Source: Caldibacillus debilis DSM 16016
Lineage (GTDB): Bacteria; Bacillota; Bacilli; Bacillales; Caldibacillaceae
Direction of reading: 5' to 3'
NCBI RefSeq assembly: GCF_000383875.1
Contig: NZ_KB912891.1
Span: 1 to 64,000 of the forward strand
DNA length: 64,000 nt
Below, piece by piece: positions 22,305 to 63,816 of this stretch (positions within the stretch are counted from its first letter, which is position 1; every line of letters begins with the position of its first letter). Both the position numbers and the translations under genes were made by a program. The notes under the pieces are model-generated. The model worked only from the letters and a program-made list of their open reading frames with translations. It was not told where the DNA came from and made no database searches.

Positions 22305-22760
22305 ATGAAAATTAAAACGAAATACTTTGACGAAATAGACATTGATGAAAAGGATATGATCACTTTTGAAAACGGGATCCCCGGATTTTGGGAAGAAACG
22401 AGGTTTGTGATTCTCCCGTTTACGGACGACGGGCTTTTTGAAATCATGCAATCGGTCGCGACGCCGGAACTCGCCTTTGTCATCACCGATCCTTTCTTCT
22501 TTTTTAAAGACTATGCGTTTGATTTGGAAGATGCGGCGGCGGAACAGCTGGGGATCGAAAGGCCGGAAGACGTAAAGGTTTCCGTGATCCTGACGGTCCA
22601 TGATCCCTTCGAAAACACGACCGCTAACCTGCAGGCTCCCGTCGTCATCAACCGGAAAAACCGCAAGGCGAAACAGGTCGTTTTGAACAATGTCCCCTAT
22701 ACCACCAAGCATCCGCTGTTTCCGAAAAAGGGTGCCGATGCCGGCGGAGGGGTGAAATGA
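22305..22760 (+). CDS. fliW: Flagellar assembly factor FliW
   Basis: FliW binds cytoplasmic flagellin or, when flagellin has been secreted, binds CsrA and relieves its block on hag translation. The 151-residue protein shows the family core [23 protein letters not shown] and [14 protein letters not shown] 22305 is preceded by AGAGGGTG; an in-frame GTG nine bases upstream is less likely. Its TGA overlaps the csrA start, so the antagonist and its target are translationally coupled. Confidence 0.95.
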
Positions 22761-22987
22761 TGCTCGTATTAACCAGAAAAAACGGCCAATCGATCCAGAT
22801 CGGGGAAAACATCCGCATTACTATCCTGGACGTCCAAGGGGAACAGGTAAAAATCGGCATCGAGGCGCCGAAATCGCTGGAGATCTACCGGAGTGAAATT
22901 TACGAACAGATTCAAGCGGAAAACCGGCTGGCGGGCAGCCTTACCCCAGGCCTTTTGGACCTGGTAAAAAAGTCCTATAAAAATTAA
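22760..22987 (+). CDS. csrA: Carbon storage regulator CsrA
   Basis: CsrA is a small homodimeric RNA-binding protein that blocks the hag ribosome binding site. The 75-residue protein begins [23 protein letters not shown] and has the five-strand core with the RNA-binding [13 protein letters not shown] segment. I place the start on the second of two ATGs, which sits seven bases after GGAGGGG; a start one codon earlier is possible. The gene overlaps fliW and is followed by hag, whose leader carries matching binding sites. Confidence 0.95.
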
Positions 22988-23130: not shown

Positions 23131-23967
23131 ATGAGAATCAACCATAACATTTCGGCGTTGAACACCTATCGCCAACTCTCTTTCAACAACACCCAAACGG
23201 CGAAAAACCTTGAAAAACTTTCTTCCGGTTACCGGATCAACCGCGCCGGCGACGACGCCGCTGGTCTCGCCATCTCTGAAAAAATGCGCGGGCAAATCCG
23301 CGGCCTGGAAATGGCGACGAAAAACGCCCAAGACGGCATCAGCCTGATCCAAACGGCGGAAGGCGCTTTGAATGAAACCCACGCGATCCTGCAACGGATT
23401 CGTGAACTGGCCGTGCAAGCCGCCAACGACACGAACACCGACAACGACCGTAAGGAACTGCAAAAAGAAGTGGACCAATTGATTGCAGAAATCGACCGCA
23501 TCGCCGATACGACCCAATTTAACACCAAAAATCTGTTGAACGGCTCAGGAACCGGAATAGTATTCCATATCGGAGCGAATAGCGCCCAAAGTGTGACTTT
23601 GGATATTTCTAGCATGAAAGCCAAAGCTTTAGGTTTGCAAACGAGCGGCGCCAGCGGCCTTCAAAACTTAAAAATTGATACTCAAGCAGATGCTGATGCT
23701 GCGATCTCAACCATTGACACCGCTATTGACACAGTTTCTTCCGAACGGGCGAAACTCGGGGCCATGCAAAACCGTCTGGAACACACCATCAATAATTTGG
23801 GCACAGCCGCTGAAAACTTGACGGCTGCCGAATCCCGGATCCGTGACGTGGATATGGCAAAAGAAATGATGGAATTCACCAAGAACAGCATCCTGACCCA
23901 AGCCGCGCAAGCGATGCTGGCCCAAGCCAACCAATTGCCCCAAGGCGTCCTGCAATTGTTGCGCTAA
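23131..23967 (+). CDS. hag: Flagellin (Hag)
   Basis: The filament subunit, 278 residues, short compared with B. subtilis Hag (about 304). The D0/D1 ends are highly conserved: [51 protein letters not shown] at the front and [15 protein letters not shown] to [13 protein letters not shown] at the back. The central region is brief and Ser/Thr-rich, a plausible target for the Maf/pseudaminic acid machinery encoded downstream. Codon choice differs between the strongly biased ends and the more AT-rich centre (about 23545-23735). The gene is monocistronic with its own SigD promoter, CsrA-controlled leader and terminator. Confidence 0.98.
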
Positions 23968-23977
23968 TCGGCAAACG

Positions 23978-24015
23978 AGAGACTTCGAAGTCAATTCTTC
24001 GGAGTCTCTTTTTCT
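23978..24015 (+). terminator. Intrinsic terminator after hag
   Basis: AGAGACTTCGAAG pairs with CTTCGGAGTCTCT (one mismatch) around a six-base loop and ends in a T run. Confidence 0.92.
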
Positions 24016-24131
24016 TTGCTTGCGGATGTAACGCCGGCCTGCGGGGGAATTTACAGGTCCGGCATAGGCGCAGATCTGCGGATGGGACCGGGCGGGAGCA
24101 GCCGCTTTCCCGAATCATACCAATGACTGGG

Positions 24132-24158
24132 ACGGCCGTGAAACAACGGCCGCTTTTT
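24132..24158 (+). terminator. Second terminator-like hairpin downstream of hag
   Basis: ACGGCCGT and ACGGCCG form a stem with a short loop, followed by CTTTTT. It may reinforce termination after the very highly transcribed hag gene. Confidence 0.65.
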
Positions 24159-24218
24159 CATGGAAGGGAAATTGGAAATTTTCAAAGTATGAGTAAAATA
24201 TTTGTGGGCAAAATTTAG

Positions 24219-24279
24219 CCCTTCAATAGGTGAGCGATCGAAGACGCCCTTTTCAAGTAGGTGTGCGATCGAAGACGCT
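24219..24279. repeat. Two tandem copies of a 31-bp repeat
   Basis: Two adjacent units share the core GCGATCGAAGACGC preceded by TTCAA and AGGTG, with starts 31 bases apart. In the second unit the core is flanked by bases that extend it as a partial palindrome ending CGCTCA. Confidence 0.7.
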
Positions 24280-24385
24280 CATCCAATGAAGGGGGAACCC
24301 TGCATAAGCGAGTCGGGTAAAGAAGAATTCATGAAAAAGGGGCTGACTTGGCAGAATAAATAAGACAACTGAAGGAGCAAAAACC

Positions 24386-24529
24386 ATGGAGTATCAAGAA
24401 TATCCGGATATCCAAACGATTGAAAAGATTGCTTGGAAGGAAATGGCGGGGATTTTTTCAACCATCATGAAAAGAAAACGGATTTCTCCGCATCATTATA
24501 TTCACTGTACCTTTTCTGTTTTTTGTTAA
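24386..24529 (+). CDS. Possible 47-residue ORF
   Basis: An ATG preceded by GAAGGAGC at a good distance opens a frame of 47 codons ending in TAA. It starts MEYQEYPDIQTIEKIAWKEM and ends with an aromatic and cysteine-containing tail. No family is recognised; it could be the surviving start of a decayed gene, since the area is full of repeat and transposon debris. Confidence 0.3.
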   Translation: MEYQEYPDIQTIEKIAWKEMAGIFSTIMKRKRISPHHYIHCTFSVFC

Positions 24530-24545
24530 CCTGTTAGTGGCATCG

Positions 24546-24911
24546 ATGTTGGACAAACGGCAGCGGATGTCGGACACGGGAAAGGATGATGGACATTTTT
24601 TGCCCGATGATGGACGTTTTTTCCCGGATGATGGACATTTTTTCTGTGATGTTGGACAAATTTTTTTCCATGTTGGACAAAAAATTTCAAATGATGGACA
24701 TTTTTTTGAAAATGTTGGACAGTCCCATGCGGTGTTGGACGTTTTTTCTCAGATGTTGGACGATCCGGTTATAATGTTGGACAGTCAGCCGGGAAAGGCG
24801 GACGGAATGTTGAACGAATTCCTCCAGATGTTGAACAAAAAGGATCCATTCTTGAACATTTGGCAAAAAATGTCGAACATTGTGCTTTGGATGTGGAACG
24901 ATCCGGAGATG
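24546..24911. repeat. 21-bp minisatellite, 17 units
   Basis: Units begin with ATG-WTG-GAC (later units AAC) and are often followed by ATTTTTT. Starts are at 24546, 24567, 24586, 24607, 24628, 24649, 24670, 24691, 24712, 24732, 24753, 24774, 24807, 24828, 24849, 24870 and 24891. Thirteen of sixteen intervals are exactly 21; the exceptions are 19, 20 and 33, which together keep the reading frame of the outer units. In the unit frame each repeat encodes a heptad M-[LMS]-[DN]-x-x-x-x. A continuous frame from GTG 24537 to 24968 runs through it but changes phase in the middle units. No ribosome site supports translation, so I list it as a repeat, not a gene. Confidence 0.85.
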
Positions 24912-25131
24912 AAGAATAGAAAAATATCGAACATTCCGGTCCGGGAATCCATGAATATTGAAATGTAGAACAATAAAACTTCCTTGTTGGTCGAAACCAT
25001 GTAATTTGAACAATAGACCTTCCGGTCCATGGCCAGCCGGAAATGTCGGTTCCCCGGACATCCGTCTTACTCGCGGATGTCCCTGGAAATGATCAATTGC
25101 GGGGAGCCGACCGGCCGGACATAGGCGCCGG

Positions 25132-25597
25132 TAAAAAATTGCCGACATGCGCTTGACTCAATCGTTGGAAGACCAAGGGATTGACACCACCGGAATGCGT
25201 CCGATGGGAAGCGCGAAAGGAACGATGAGCGTGTTTGCCAAAAGGCTGAAAAATGGTCGCAGCTGGGTGGAAAAGGGGCAAGTGCCATGTTCACCGGAAT
25301 GGTGGCCTATTTGGATCAATTGGCATGAATAACGCTGTTTGGAAGAGTGGAAAGATGGACAGAAAGCGAGGAAGAAAAGAACCTGCCGAAACATTTTCTT
25401 GAAAAGGTGGAGAAGTCACAAGAGACAACCTCACGATCTTAAAAAACAAGGCAGATACGCCCACATATAAAGCGCTGAAAGCACTGTCCGGTTTTTAAAA
25501 ACGCGGAATATTGACCAAGGAGAGAACCCTGAACGTTTGTATCCGTTTTATATTCCCGGCACGGGGTTAAAAAAATGCCCACATACGCTTGACTCAA
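25132..25597. repeat. Pair of 30-bp direct repeats flanking transposase debris
   Basis: Copies at 25132-25161 and 25568-25597 match at 27 of 30 positions and share CGCTTGACTCAA. The second copy lies where the right end of an ISLre2-type element would be, 70 bases after the transposase stop; the first abuts the truncated transposase fragment. This suggests nested or recombined insertion-sequence ends. Confidence 0.65.
25147..25498 (+). pseudogene. Decayed UPF0236/ISLre2 transposase, C-terminal fragment
   Basis: Reading in three phases recovers the C-terminus of an ISLre2-type (UPF0236) transposase: first MRPMGSAKGTMSVFAKRLKN and SWVEKG, then after a frameshift MFTGMVAYLDQLA, an in-frame TGA, LFGRVERWTESEEEKNLPKH, and after another shift LKNKADTPTYKALKALSGF and a stop. 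The N-terminal two-thirds is missing. At least two frameshifts and one nonsense codon make it inactive. The order of motifs is from recalled family members. Confidence 0.75.
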
Positions 25598-25615
25598 ACA
25601 TTTTCAAAAAACGGA

Positions 25616-25665
25616 TTGACAGTGAGAATTATTCTCATTATCATTATAAATGAGAATGGTTCTCA
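25616..25665 (+). promoter_or_regulatory. Iron-regulated promoter with two Fur boxes
   Basis: TTGACA at 25616, a 17-base spacer and TATCAT at 25639-25644. A perfect 7-1-7 palindrome TGAGAATTATTCTCA covers the spacer (25623-25637) and a second TGAGAATGGTTCTCA lies just downstream (25651-25665). Both fit the Bacillus Fur consensus, so the siderophore operon that follows should be repressed in iron-replete cells. Confidence 0.92.
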
Positions 25666-25710
25666 TTTTTATTTGCCGACATTTCTTCCGGAAGAAAGCG
25701 AACGAAGCCT

Positions 25711-26667
25711 ATGAACAAAATCGTTTTGCTCCTTTCGATGCTGATCTTGTCCGCCGCCTCGCTTTTTATCGGCGTGTCGGATGTCGGCATCAAGGATGTC
25801 TTTCATTTGTCGGGGGAACAAAAGGAAATCTTGCTGATCAGCCGCCTTCCCCGTCTGCTGAGCATTGTCGTCGCCGGCGCAGGCTTGAGCATCGCCGGCC
25901 TCATCATGCAGCAATTGAGCAGGAACAAATTCGTGTCTCCGACGACGGCGGGAACGATGGATTTTGCCAAATTGGGGATCTTGATCGCTTTGCTGGTCTT
26001 TTCCCGATCCGGCCCTTTTTTAAAAATGGCGGTCGCCTTTCTGTTCGCCCTTTTGGGCACCTACTTGTTCATGAAAATCGTGGACAATATCAAGTTCAAA
26101 GATCCCGTTTTCATCCCCCTCGTCGGGCTGATGCTGGGGAACATCGTCAGTTCCATCTCCACCTTCTTTGCCTACCGGTATGATTTGATCCAAAATATTT
26201 CATCTTGGCTGATCGGCGATTTTTCCAACGTGATCAAAAGCAGATACGAACTGATTTTCATCAGCGTGCCCCTGGTCATGCTCGCCTATTTGTATGCGAA
26301 CCGTTTTACGATCGCCGGCATGGGGGAAGACTTTTCCAAAAACCTTGGCTTAAACTACAAAAACGTTGTCCGTCTCGGATTGGTGATCGTCGCTTTCATT
26401 ACATCGTCGGTCATTATCACCGTCGGCGTCATTCCGTTTTTGGGCCTCATCGTTCCGAACTTGGTTTCCATCTACCGCGGCGACCATTTGAAACGAAGCC
26501 TGCCCGAAACGGCGTTATTCGGATCCGTGTTTCTATTGGCCTGCGACATCCTGGGGAGATTAATCATCTATCCCTATGAAATTCCGATTCATTTGACGGT
26601 TGGCGTGATCGGCAGCGGCATCTTCATCTATTTGCTGTTAAGGAGTAAAAGGAATGAAGCGGCTTAA
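25711..26667 (+). CDS. yclN: Petrobactin-type siderophore ABC permease YclN
   Basis: A 318-residue FecCD-family permease with about nine membrane segments. The RLPRLLSIVVAGAGLSIAGLIMQ motif near residue 45 and the GVIPFLGLIVPNLVSI coupling region near 245 identify the family. Segments such as GLIMQQLSRNKFVSPTTAGT match what I recall of B. subtilis YclN (FpbN), part of the petrobactin/ferric catecholate importer. It starts the Fur-controlled operon and overlaps the next permease gene by 14 bases. The start codon lacks a strong ribosome site. Confidence 0.9.
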   Translation: MNKIVLLLSMLILSAASLFIGVSDVGIKDVFHLSGEQKEILLISRLPRLLSIVVAGAGLSIAGLIMQQLSRNKFVSPTTAGTMDFAKLGILIALLVFSRSGPFLKMAVAFLFALLGTYLFMKIVDNIKFKDPVFIPLVGLMLGNIVSSISTFFAYRYDLIQNISSWLIGDFSNVIKSRYELIFISVPLVMLAYLYANRFTIAGMGEDFSKNLGLNYKNVVRLGLVIVAFITSSVIITVGVIPFLGLIVPNLVSIYRGDHLKRSLPETALFGSVFLLACDILGRLIIYPYEIPIHLTVGVIGSGIFIYLLLRSKRNEAA

Positions 26668-59294: not shown

Positions 59295-61808
59295 ATGGCA
59301 GGCATTTTAACTAAACTATTCGACCTGAACAAACGGGAACTGAAAAGATTGGAAAAGATCGCCGATCAGATCGACGCCCTTTCCGGCGAGATGAAACGGC
59401 TGCCGGATTCGGCGTTGAAGGCGAAAACCGACGAGTTCAAAAACCGGCTCGCCAAGGGCGAAACCCTTGATGACCTGTTGGTGGAAGCCTACGCCGTCGT
59501 CCGGGAAGCTTCCCGGCGCGTTCTTGGATTATATCCCTTTAAAGTGCAATTGATGGGCGCCGTTGTTTTGCACGAAGGAAACATCGCCGAGATGAAAACC
59601 GGGGAAGGGAAGACCCTGACCTCCACCATGCCGGTCTATTTGAACGCCTTGACGGGCGAGGGCGTCCATGTGGTGACGGTCAACGACTATCTGGCGAAAC
59701 GGGACGCGACGGAAATGGGGAAGATTTACGAATTCCTCGGCCTTTCCGTCGGTTTAAATTTGCCGGAAATGAGCCGGGAAGAAAAACAAAAAGCCTATCA
59801 GGCGGACGTCACCTACGGAACGAACAATGAGTTCGGCTTCGACTACCTCCGCGATAACATGGTCTTGTACAAAGAACATATGGTGCAGCGGCCGCTGAAT
59901 TACGCGATCATCGACGAAGTCGACTCGATCTTGATCGACGAAGCCCGCACCCCGCTGATCATTTCCGGTTCGGCGAAAAAATCGAACGAATTGTACATTC
60001 AGGCCAACGCCTTCGTCCGCACGTTGAAAAAAGACGTGGACTTCACCTTGGACGAAAAAACGAAAACCGTCCAGCTGACGGAAGAAGGAATCAACAAGGC
60101 GGAACGGGCCTTCGGCATCGACAACCTTTTCGACATCAATCACGTCACCCTGAACCATCATATCAATCAGGCGCTGAGGGCCAATTACATCATGCAAAGG
60201 GACGTCGATTATGTGGTTCAAGACGGCGAGATCATCATCGTCGATCCCTTCACCGGGCGCCTGATGAAAGGGCGGAGATACAGCGACGGCCTCCATCAGG
60301 CGATCGAGGCGAAGGAAGGGGTCCCGATCCAAAACGAAAGCATGACCTTGGCGACGATCACCTTCCAAAACTATTTCCGGATGTATAAAAAGCTGGCGGG
60401 GATGACCGGTACGGCCAAAACGGAAGAGGAAGAATTCCGGAACATTTACAATATGAACGTCGTCGTCATCCCGACGAACAAGCCGGTCATCCGGGAAGAC
60501 CGCCCGGATTTGATCTACGCCACGATGGAAGGGAAATTTAAGGCGGTCGTGGAAGACATCGCCCGCCGCCATGCCAAAGGGCAGCCCGTCCTCGTCGGCA
60601 CCGTCGCCATCGAGACTTCGGAATTGCTTTCGAAGATGCTGACGAAACGCGGGATCAAGCACAATGTTTTGAATGCGAAAAACCATGCCCGGGAAGCGGA
60701 AATCATCGCCCAGGCCGGACAAAAAGGGGCGGTGACGATCGCCACGAACATGGCCGGCCGCGGTACGGACATCAAGCTGGGCGAAGGCGTGAAAGAATTG
60801 GGCGGATTGGCGGTCATCGGGACGGAACGCCATGAAAGCCGCCGGATCGACAATCAGCTCCGCGGCCGTTCCGGCCGTCAGGGGGATCCCGGCGTCACCC
60901 AATTTTACCTGTCTTTGGAAGACGAGCTGATGCGCCGCTTCGGTTCCGACAGCATCAAAGGAATGATGCAGCGCTTCGGCATGGACGACAGCCAGCCGAT
61001 CCAAAGCAAGATGGTGTCCAAGGCCGTCGAATCCGCGCAAAAACGGGTGGAAGGCAACAACTTCGACGCCCGCAAGCAGCTGCTGCAATATGACGATGTC
61101 ATCCGCCAGCAGCGGGAAATCATTTACAAACAGCGGTATGAAGTGATCACTTCCGACAATTTGCGGGATATTATCGAAGAGATGATCCTGACGGTCATTA
61201 AGCGCCACGTGCAGGATTTCGCCAACGAAAACGCCGATCCGGAAGATTGGAATCTGGAAGGCCTGGTCGATTACGTCAGCGCCAATCTCCTTCCGGAAAA
61301 CGACGTGACCGTGGATGACTTAAAAGGCAAAGAACCGGAAGAAATGGTCCGATTCATTTTCGACAAAGTCAAGATGCGCTACGATGAAAAGGAACAGCAA
61401 TTGGGACCGGAAAAAATGCGGGAATTTGAAAAAGTCATCACCTTGCGGGCCGTCGACTCCAAATGGATGGACCATATCGACGCGATGGACCAGCTGCGCC
61501 AGGGCATCCATCTGCGGGCGTACGGGCAAATCGACCCGCTGAGGGAGTATCAACAGGAAGGTTTCCAAATGTTTGAAAGCATGATCGAGGCCATCGAGGA
61601 AGACGTGGCGAAATATATCATGAAAGCGGAGATCGTCAGCAACCTGAAGCGGGAAGAAGTGGCGAAAGGCCAGGCGGTCATCCCGAAATCCGACGGGGAA
61701 AAGCCGAAGCAAAAACCGATACGGAAAACGGTGCATATCGGCCGCAACGACCCGTGTTTTTGCGGAAGCGGGAAAAAATATAAGCATTGCCACGGAAAGA
61801 CGGTTTAA
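59295..61808 (+). CDS. secA: Preprotein translocase ATPase SecA
   Basis: SecA drives post-translational protein export through SecYEG. The 837-residue protein has all domains in order: NBD1 with Walker A MKTGEGKT near residue 100 and Walker [17 protein letters not shown] near 205, the preprotein crosslinking domain, NBD2 with [11 protein letters not shown] near 493 and [11 protein letters not shown] near 525, the helical scaffold and wing, and the C-terminal zinc-binding tail [25 protein letters not shown] lies before the ATG. A terminator follows. prfB is normally adjacent, as here. Confidence 0.98.
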
Positions 61809-61916: not shown

Positions 61917-62469
61917 CGGGAAACACGGGCCGGGCTTCCCGGACGGCCGCCCGCGGATTTTCCGGCGCTTTCCGCCGGGGCGGGCGCTTTCCCTTTTGGC
62001 TGCGTTTCGCCCCTTCCTCGCGCAACGGATCGTTTTCGGATGATCGCCGGCTTGATATGCCGGGATGGGGGAGCCATGCAAACGCGGGCCTTGTGCCTGA
62101 ACCTTTGCCCGTCTGCAACGGTTTCCCCGCAGGACTCCTTCGGCCCGGTTCAACGCCGCCCCCGGTCATTGGCAAAAAGGGCCGTCAGGTTCTGTGGGAA
62201 CCCTTGCTTTTCCCGGGCTTCCGGATTTGGGACGGACCGATCGCTCAAAGATGAAAAAATTGCCCGGGCCGCATCGGACGGCCCGGCATTTTCATTCTTT
62301 GCATAAGGGATGTTCGACTTGGAGAAAAATTTTTACAGCAGAAAAGAAAATTAACCATCCGGAAAAACGCCCGGCACCGCAGAAAGCCGGCCGCCATCGC
62401 ATCCGGCGGAGGCATCCGGCGGAGGCTGCCGAAATCTTGGCCTGGCCATCCGATGAAAAAGCCTTGAAC
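61917..62469. other. Long spacer between secA and prfB
   Basis: About 550 bases. A second terminator-like hairpin (TGCCCGGGCCG paired with CGGCCCGGCA at 62261-62288, followed by TTTTC) lies in the middle. No gene supported. Confidence 0.55.
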
Positions 62470-62714: not shown

Positions 62715-63816
62715 ATGGAACTGTTTGAAATCAGGCAGGAATTGGAAAAAACCGCTAAGCGATTAGCGGATTTCAGGGGGTCTCTTTGACTTACAGGGCA
62801 AAGAAGCGAAGATCGCCCAACTGGAAGAAAAAATGCTGGCCCCCGGATTTTGGGATGACCAGAGGAAGGCCCAGGAAGTCATCAATGAATTGAACGGGTT
62901 AAAGGACCAAGTCCAGACTTTCACTTCCTTGGAAAAGGCCTACGAAGATCTGGAGCTCGCCTACGAGCTCGTAAAGGAAGAGGAAGACAAGGAATTGAAG
63001 GAAGAGCTGGAAGCGGATCTCAAACAGTTGAAAACGAAATTAAACGAATTCGAATTGCAATTGCTTTTGAGCGGGCCTTACGACAAAAACAACGCCATAT
63101 TGGAACTCCACCCCGGCGCCGGGGGAACCGAATCCCAAGACTGGGGCGCGATGCTTTTGCGGATGTATACGCGCTGGGCGGAGAAGAAAGGCTTCAAAGT
63201 CGAGACCCTGGATTATCTGCCCGGCGACGAGGCGGGGATCAAAAGCGTCACCTTGTTGATCAAAGGGCGCAACGCTTACGGTTATTTGAAAGCGGAAAAA
63301 GGCGTCCACCGGCTCGTCCGCATCTCGCCTTTCGACGCCTCCGGACGGCGGCACACCTCCTTTGTTTCCTGCGAAGTCATGCCGGAATTCGATGAGGACA
63401 TTCAAATCGAAATCCGTCCGGAAGAGCTGAAGATCGATACGTACCGTTCCAGCGGGGCCGGCGGGCAGCACGTGAACACCACCGATTCGGCGGTGCGCAT
63501 CACCCACCTGCCGACGGGCATCGTCGTCACCTGCCAGTCGGAACGTTCGCAGATCCAAAACCGGGAAAAGGCGTTGAACATGTTGAAAGGGAAGCTCTAT
63601 CAGCGGAAATTGGAAGAGCAGGAAAGGCAGCTGAATGAACTGCGGGGAGAACAGAAGGAAATCGGATGGGGGAACCAAATCCGTTCCTATGTTTTCCATC
63701 CTTATTCCCTTGTGAAAGATCACCGCACCAACGTGGAAACGGGGAACATCCAAAGCGTAATGGACGGTGAAATCGATTTGTTCATTGACGCCTATCTGCG
63801 TTCGCAGCTCGGTTAA
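62715..63816 (+). CDS. prfB: Peptide chain release factor 2 (programmed +1 frameshift)
   Basis: RF2 recognises UGA and UAA and releases the finished peptide. Translation starts at ATG 62715 (GAGGTGAAG upstream), reads 24 codons to CTT, meets TGA at 62787-62789, and shifts +1 to continue with GAC from 62788, giving 366 residues, the same length as B. subtilis RF2. The shift site is the classic CTT-TGA-C with an internal Shine-Dalgarno-like AGGGGG three bases before CTTTGA's preceding codon. Codon-recognition motif SPF lies in [11 protein letters not shown], and the catalytic GGQ in [11 protein letters not shown]. Confidence 0.97.
62775..62790 (+). promoter_or_regulatory. RF2 autoregulatory frameshift site
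   Basis: AGGGGG, TCT, CTT, TGA, C in order: an internal ribosome-binding-like hexamer, slippery CTT and in-frame TGA. When RF2 is low the ribosome pauses at TGA and slips forward, making more RF2. Confidence 0.95.

Follow-up and report, generated by a model that had tools for sequence, protein, structure and literature searches.

Dispersed repeats in bacterial genomes usually raise the question of whether they are debris or are doing something. Iteron arrays of plasmid origins are direct repeats of about two helical turns, and the CsrA-sequestering RNAs of the CsrB/RsmZ type carry many GGA motifs in a row. REPINs are thought to be mobile through the RAYT transposase, which is supplied in trans, according to the account given in PMC3116915. 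The STAR elements of Staphylococcus, as described in PMC3532100, are repeats of a GC-rich motif of 14 bp, T(G/A/T)TGTTG(G/T)GGCCC(C/A), with a spacing of at least 40 bp, and the three loci listed in that paper have 0-7 units.

Here we describe an array of short direct repeats in the genome of Caldibacillus debilis DSM 16016, found in a stretch of 64,000 nucleotides at the start of contig NZ_KB912891.1 (hereafter the window), together with its homologues elsewhere in the same genome. In our preferred reading, to which we give a probability of about 0.5, the window array belongs to a family of non-coding elements of ~0.4 kb that is specific to the lineage and dispersed over mostly intergenic sites; the elements would carry phased protein sites, and the latest wave of them would have been borne by an insertion sequence (IS). 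The features of the window that bear on this reading are as follows.

23131-23967, + strand: hag (flagellin), a neighbour only
24184-25602, + strand: remnant of a UPF0236 (ISLre2-type) IS, with the array nested inside
24184-24210, + strand: left imperfect terminal inverted repeat of the IS remnant, matching the right one in 20 of 27 columns
24386-24526, + strand: remnant similar to the N-terminus of the transposase, at 40% over 25 aa compared with further IS copies of the genome
24537-24968, + strand: open reading frame (ORF) of 143 aa over the array, judged spurious
24546-24911, + strand: the array, 17 units ATG[AT][TC]G[GA]AC at ~21 bp, located by motif scans
24586-24720, + strand: best-conserved block, i.e. 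units 3-9 with T-tract spacers (117.9 bits with profile R1, see below)
24912-24972, + strand: decayed 3' continuation of the array, with units at 24924 and 24955/24963
25147-25329, + strand: UPF0236 transposase C-terminus fragment (PF06782, E 2.1e-8, above the cut-off)
25576-25602, - strand: right imperfect terminal inverted repeat of the IS remnant
62296-62385, - strand: strongly decayed second array copy, between secA-like and prfB-like ORFs (R1, E 1e-8 in the window search)

The units of the window array start at 24546, 24567, 24586, 24607, 24628, 24649, 24670, 24691, 24712 (units 1-9), 24732, 24753, 24774, 24807, 24828, 24849, 24870 and 24891 (units 10-17), of which units 1-14 were recovered by a scan allowing 1 mismatch. 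Direct reading bears out the initial annotation, which had counted 17 units between 24546 and 24911 with 13 of the 16 spacings equal to 21 bp; the remaining spacings of 19, 20 and 33 sum to 72 and thus, as had also been claimed, to a multiple of three. The 3' limit set by that annotation stands less well, as decayed units are found further downstream. A pattern of two consecutive units with at most 2 mismatches has 10 matches in the window, while shuffled sequences give an expectation of 0.00. Tandem Repeats Finder (TRF), on the other hand, detects the array only in pieces (24585-24681), and differences between the spacers are the presumed reason.

A nucleotide search with the window array as the query revealed homologous arrays at 38 sites of the genome. 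This search returned 41 rows, three of which are not counted as copies: C1:322575 and C2:69901 are parts of neighbouring copies, and C35:110069 is only 23 bp long. In the 3.06-Mb genome there are 60 exact matches to the two-unit pattern (37 and 23 on the two strands), and none to the same pattern read backwards. With a profile of the best-conserved 135 bp, termed R1, for which 34 copies were used, four weak relicts were detected in addition (E 1.3e-5 or better), one of them being the strongly decayed second copy in the window. The ORFs on the two sides of this copy, at 59295-61808 and 62833-63816, we take from their sequences to be secA-like and prfB-like, respectively. The spacing series of the window array, i.e. 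21, 19, six times 21, 20, 21, 21, 33, 21, then ~42 and 33, is common to the full-length copies with small differences, and some of the other copies have lost recognisable units. Furthermore, comparing spacers at equivalent units of different copies gives a mean identity of 0.63, versus 0.38 for different units within one copy. As both the spacings and the spacers are shared unit by unit, the copies must come from a single ordered array; the odd spacings are thus old, and the gaps of 19, 20 and 33 bp are inherited.

The arrays lie mostly between genes, 32 of the 38 copies being clear of genes predicted with a home-made gene caller, and the other six (L011, L013, L015, L157, L158 and L167) overlapping or touching a predicted ORF by 1-294 bp at places where the start codons are uncertain. 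Ordinary Pfam families were found in 19 of the 20 neighbour genes tested, among them spermidine synthase, SpoVR, arginase, MCP and ABC transporter, so that the neighbours, judged by these assignments, are unrelated household genes; the orientation of the arrays relative to them is mixed. At L009 (contig 1, 95605-97732), a single gene with a NERD domain (L009:3402-4340) lies between two arrays of the same orientation. The initial annotation had considered such an array unusual beside hag; the array itself is real, and there is nothing specific to hag about it, with 37 further copies elsewhere in the genome. Moreover, no array is present in the stretches examined around the hag genes of three relatives, each of which contains just one or two isolated units. 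Because of these two observations, the nearness of the window array to hag looks incidental. Just before a set of ABC-transporter-like genes (25711 onward), which we presume to be of the iron type, the window also contains a palindromic stretch rich in gagaat/attctc (25618-25672), which to our eye resembles Fur boxes.

The conservation varies along the array, the 5' third being the most conserved (mean identity 0.78, vs 0.67 and 0.63 in the other thirds). Among younger copies the nearest neighbours often agree across the thirds of the array, while among older ones they often differ, and there may have been partial gene conversion, i.e. mosaic exchange, between arrays. The tree and the parsimony counts given below include 30 of the 38 copies, eight truncated or poorly aligned ones having been omitted; alignments A1 and A2 hold 31 and 34 of the 38 copies, respectively.

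The window copy lies within the remnant of an IS whose UPF0236 protein we take to be the ISLre2 transposase. The C-terminal fragment of this protein matches the NCBIfam ISLre2 model weakly (E 0.026, far below the cut-off), and the N-terminus-like remnant has neither a Pfam match above the cut-off nor an NCBIfam match of its own. In the left part of the IS remnant a 31-bp unit is repeated 2.1 times according to TRF (24218-24278), and several UPF0236 elements, mostly broken, are present on contigs 36, 37 and 40 of the genome, with split matches and a stop in 2 of 11 rows. The sister copy on contig 38 shares both the array and its flanks with the window copy, at 93% over ~0.95 kb. DNA resembling this IS was found beside or around seven of the 38 copies, namely the window copy, L028, L011, L015, L010, L022 and L033, although at L033 and L022 part of the IS-like DNA resembles a separate IS copy adjoining the array. 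A single clade of the 30-copy tree comprises exactly these seven copies, which suggests that the latest wave of spread was tied to this ISLre2-type IS. None of this IS sequence was placed by the IS searches near the remaining 31 copies. The close pairs L012/L013 (92%) and L014/L017 (90%) share the array alone, and since they have neither common flanks nor a detected IS, the spread of these older pairs is left unexplained. The ends of the close pairs without an IS are somewhat variable, and show no terminal inverted repeats by eye.

As the spacers are homologous between copies, they provide an internal control for the motif. Over the 38 copies the mean pairwise difference is 0.246 in the cores vs 0.424 in the spacers, and within the core it is lowest at the ATG, the G after it and the AC. 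We compared 12 close pairs without common copies, ten of which are sisters in the 30-copy tree; the other two, L014/L017 and L011/L015, are close without being sisters. The ratio of the tight-core distance to the spacer distance is below 1 in all 12 pairs, with a pooled value of 0.31 (CI 0.23-0.40), and it is 0.24 (0.16-0.32) in the six youngest close pairs. With the masks slid by 9-18 columns the ratio becomes 1.17-1.87, and with a slide of 3 or 6 columns, where the core is still overlapped, it is 0.58-0.65. When matched for base, 76 core changes were seen vs 234 expected. Parsimony on the 30-copy tree gives a ratio of changes per site, tight-core over spacer positions, of 0.35 (CI 0.27-0.44) for terminal branches and of 0.18 (0.08-0.31) for internal ones. 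An earlier pair count that included the ragged ends of the arrays gave a weaker contrast (54/702 vs 236/1609, seven pairs pooled), and in that count the pair L010/L022 showed no contrast between cores and spacers. The method by which the copies were found should have little influence on young pairs, because a divergence of ~10% would not hide them. The ATGnnGnAC core thus changes about 3-4 times more slowly than the spacers in close pairs, and seems to be constrained in resident copies. The most economical interpretation is that the motif is important in resident copies; decay does occur in some of the copies, as seen in the relicts. As the constraint is stronger on internal branches, the motif may have a part in spreading as well, and the constraint could also act on RNA or have a cause other than binding.

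The unit starts are in a shared helical phase, with R 0.857 for a turn of 10.5 bp and P ~0.02-0.03 under random placement of the breaks, this being a weak test made post hoc, whereas their agreement with one reading frame is at the chance level (P 0.35). Taken together, the core constraint and the helical phase favour a predicted protein that would bind along one face of the DNA, one of the two possibilities that the initial annotation had raised for the 21-bp period, although the binder itself is a putative protein. An alternative view of the core as a near-palindrome (ATGTTGAACAT) was dropped, as conservation is loose at offsets 9 and 10. In the preferred reading, each element is a fixed, ordered series of ~17-20 ATGnnGnAC motifs, mostly one every 21 bp, i.e. 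every two helical turns, with T-tract spacers in the 5' half. The cores would be the sites of a sequence-specific DNA-binding protein lined up on one face of the DNA, and each element would function as a multi-site platform, possibly for chromosome organisation, silencing or a similar process. The family would have grown by several waves of duplication, the latest of which, including the window copy, would have travelled in or beside ISLre2-type insertion sequences.

The same observations bear on several other explanations. That the array codes for a repetitive protein, the other possibility raised initially, or that the family consists of genes for such proteins or small peptides with heptads M-[ML]-D-x4, now partly decayed, seems to us barely credible. 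The 143-aa ORF at 24537-24968 is indeed present, but all + frames carry a stop within the array in 23 of the 27 copies examined. Two of the remaining four were counted over 152-156 bp only, and the other two are the window copy and its sister C38:129028-129407, the only ones among the 27 with an open + frame across a full-length array. A - frame without a stop was found in nine of the 27, over 152-291 bp only in eight of them, the ninth being the sister copy. A 45-codon inner frame (M-M-D-I-F...) is open in 26 of the 38 copies, which agrees with chance, as 22.4 (95% range 16-28) would be expected from simulated mutation of the consensus at the observed rate; the reverse frames of the same block, for which there is no null, are open in 23, 18 and 5 of the 38. 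In addition, the divergence of the block at codon positions 1, 2 and 3 is 0.27, 0.23 and 0.21, without an excess at the third, the 19 and 20 bp spacings shared between copies disrupt the heptad frame, and a Pfam search of the ORFs returned nothing above the cut-off over the array. The array is thus non-coding, and not a protein gene. Hardly more plausible is a neutral minisatellite made by slippage and devoid of function. It would account for the tandem units and for the extra partial duplication at the end of at least one copy (L013), yet the irregular spacings and the spacers recur at many unlinked sites, and the cores are constrained. Local slippage, which the initial annotation had kept as its fallback, does not apply, since the odd spacings recur in other copies.

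An RNA element is somewhat easier to entertain, though still improbable: the arrays would be transcribed, and the motif would bind a protein or pair with RNA. A CsrA-type sponge was considered because hag and an ORF at 22757-22987, which we take to be csrA-like, are neighbours of the window copy, and each copy has ~17-20 units, most of them with a GGA; the + strand of the window copy alone also folds better than its shuffles (z -2.97, none of 100 shuffles as good), while the - strand does not (z -1.05). The sponge was rejected, because the middle G of the GGA is replaced by A in 150 of the 537 units counted and is among the most variable core positions. Nor is there a conserved RNA fold in the family, the RNAalifold consensus for 31 of the 38 copies (366 columns) reaching only -3.75 kcal/mol with 19 pairs, of which six show at least one change on both sides. 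Rfam gave no family at the gathering score over 24000-25800, and the sole CRISPR match there (25545-25573) is outside the array and below the cut-off. The main rival of the preferred reading is a selfish, non-autonomous mobile element, in which the 21-bp units would bind a transposase acting in trans and the resident copies would have no host function. We regard this as a real possibility, if a clearly less probable one than a family of host protein sites. It fits the dispersal of the copies in clades with relicts, the tie of the latest clade to the ISLre2-type element, and the fact that the constraint is strongest on internal branches (0.18). Against it, the resident copies of such an element should decay equally in core and spacer, yet the ratio in the six youngest pairs is 0.24; moreover, the close pairs without an IS have variable ends with no terminal inverted repeats seen, and most copies have none of this IS sequence placed nearby.

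The best reading of the taxonomic distribution is that the family is lineage-specific. The evidence for it comes from one genome, and in the collection the genus is represented by this genome alone. The exact two-unit pattern is present in only one of the 397 genomes of the order, namely its own, while profile R1 has weak matches in seven other genomes of the family, two of which are 80% and 87% complete. The best of these matches has an E of 0.0057 (18.1 bits), compared to 5.5e-35 (120.8 bits) in the own genome, and there are 7-23 matches per genome at E up to 1. The interval between speE and what we presume, from the B. subtilis order, to be a penicillin-binding-protein gene is 1,243 bp here vs 334 and 332 bp in two relatives with the same gene order (between aligned anchor residues), and the intergenic DNA of these two relatives shows no array by eye, as an 'empty' site. 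The heptad variant with serine, MSDK (ATGTCNGAYAAR x3), has no match in 150 genomes of the order.

In a wider search, the exact two-unit pattern was found in at least 119 stretches of the GTDB collection; among the matches listed, the 80 inspected (L038-L117) are by eye mostly chance matches or other repeats. In Bacteroidales UBA5515, the loci L039, L087 and L109 have units like ATGATGGACATAAAT / ATGATGGACATATTT at 21 bp, with a reversed unit upstream in L039 and a near-match of it in L087; this dispersed repeat is apparently unrelated to the window family, despite a strikingly similar unit. Dispersed repeats of a heptamer type (TTCGATGTTGGACGTTCGATGTTCGATGTTGGACGTTC) are seen in deltaproteobacterial MAGs (L053, L054, L098, L107 and similar loci), at several loci in some genomes. 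A three-unit pattern matched 19 stretches in viral contigs, none of which is a comparable array; one viral locus, L175 (IMGVR_UViG_3300020000_000033), has a cluster of motifs like ATGACGGACA that face either way and are spaced by 10, 11 and 21 bp. No array match was obtained in 72,556 plasmid records or in phage records, and searches of open-licence papers brought up no title or abstract that describes this array family.

What makes the family informative is that one genome offers about forty homologous copies in which a motif is kept while the spacers between drift. With a host protein as the reader of the arrays, they would constitute a system of binding on the scale of the chromosome that is confined to one lineage; with a transposase as the reader, they would be a mobile element consisting of little else than binding sites. 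More speculatively, the roughly forty elements, with several hundred phased copies of the motif, might form a network maintained by the host, in which a dedicated, as yet only predicted protein would bridge or coat the chromosome, organising or silencing it, and which would have grown by repeat dispersal, partly IS-borne; we think this rather unlikely as it stands, and put it forward tentatively.

Set beside the known systems, the family differs from plasmid iterons in having dozens of dispersed copies in one genome and no match among the plasmid records. Unlike CsrB/RsmZ, it is a multicopy DNA family in which GGA is not conserved and there are no conserved hairpins, and unlike in a CRISPR array, its spacers recur between loci. 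It resembles MITE-type IS derivatives in that the window array has a terminal inverted repeat on either side and little of the transposase left, the sister copy being alike, but the IS searches placed such sequence near only seven of the 38 copies, and no inverted repeats are seen at the ends of the arrays themselves. With REPINs and REP sequences it shares the character of a multicopy extragenic family with conserved short motifs; however, a REPIN, as described in PMC3116915, consists of two palindromic repeats in inverted order, whereas the elements here have ~17-20 direct repeats and no inverted pair. The STAR elements, to the extent covered by PMC3532100, likewise consist of a short motif repeated directly, with spacers, at scattered intergenic sites, and show evidence of maintenance; as for the present family, their function and mode of propagation are not known. 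The core of the window family is ATGnnGnAC, often followed by A/T-rich spacers, unlike the STAR motif, and its spacers are common unit by unit across loci (0.63 vs 0.38), whereas those of STAR are described as locus-specific (PMC3532100). In general form, the STAR elements as portrayed in that paper are the nearest described kind (PMC3532100).
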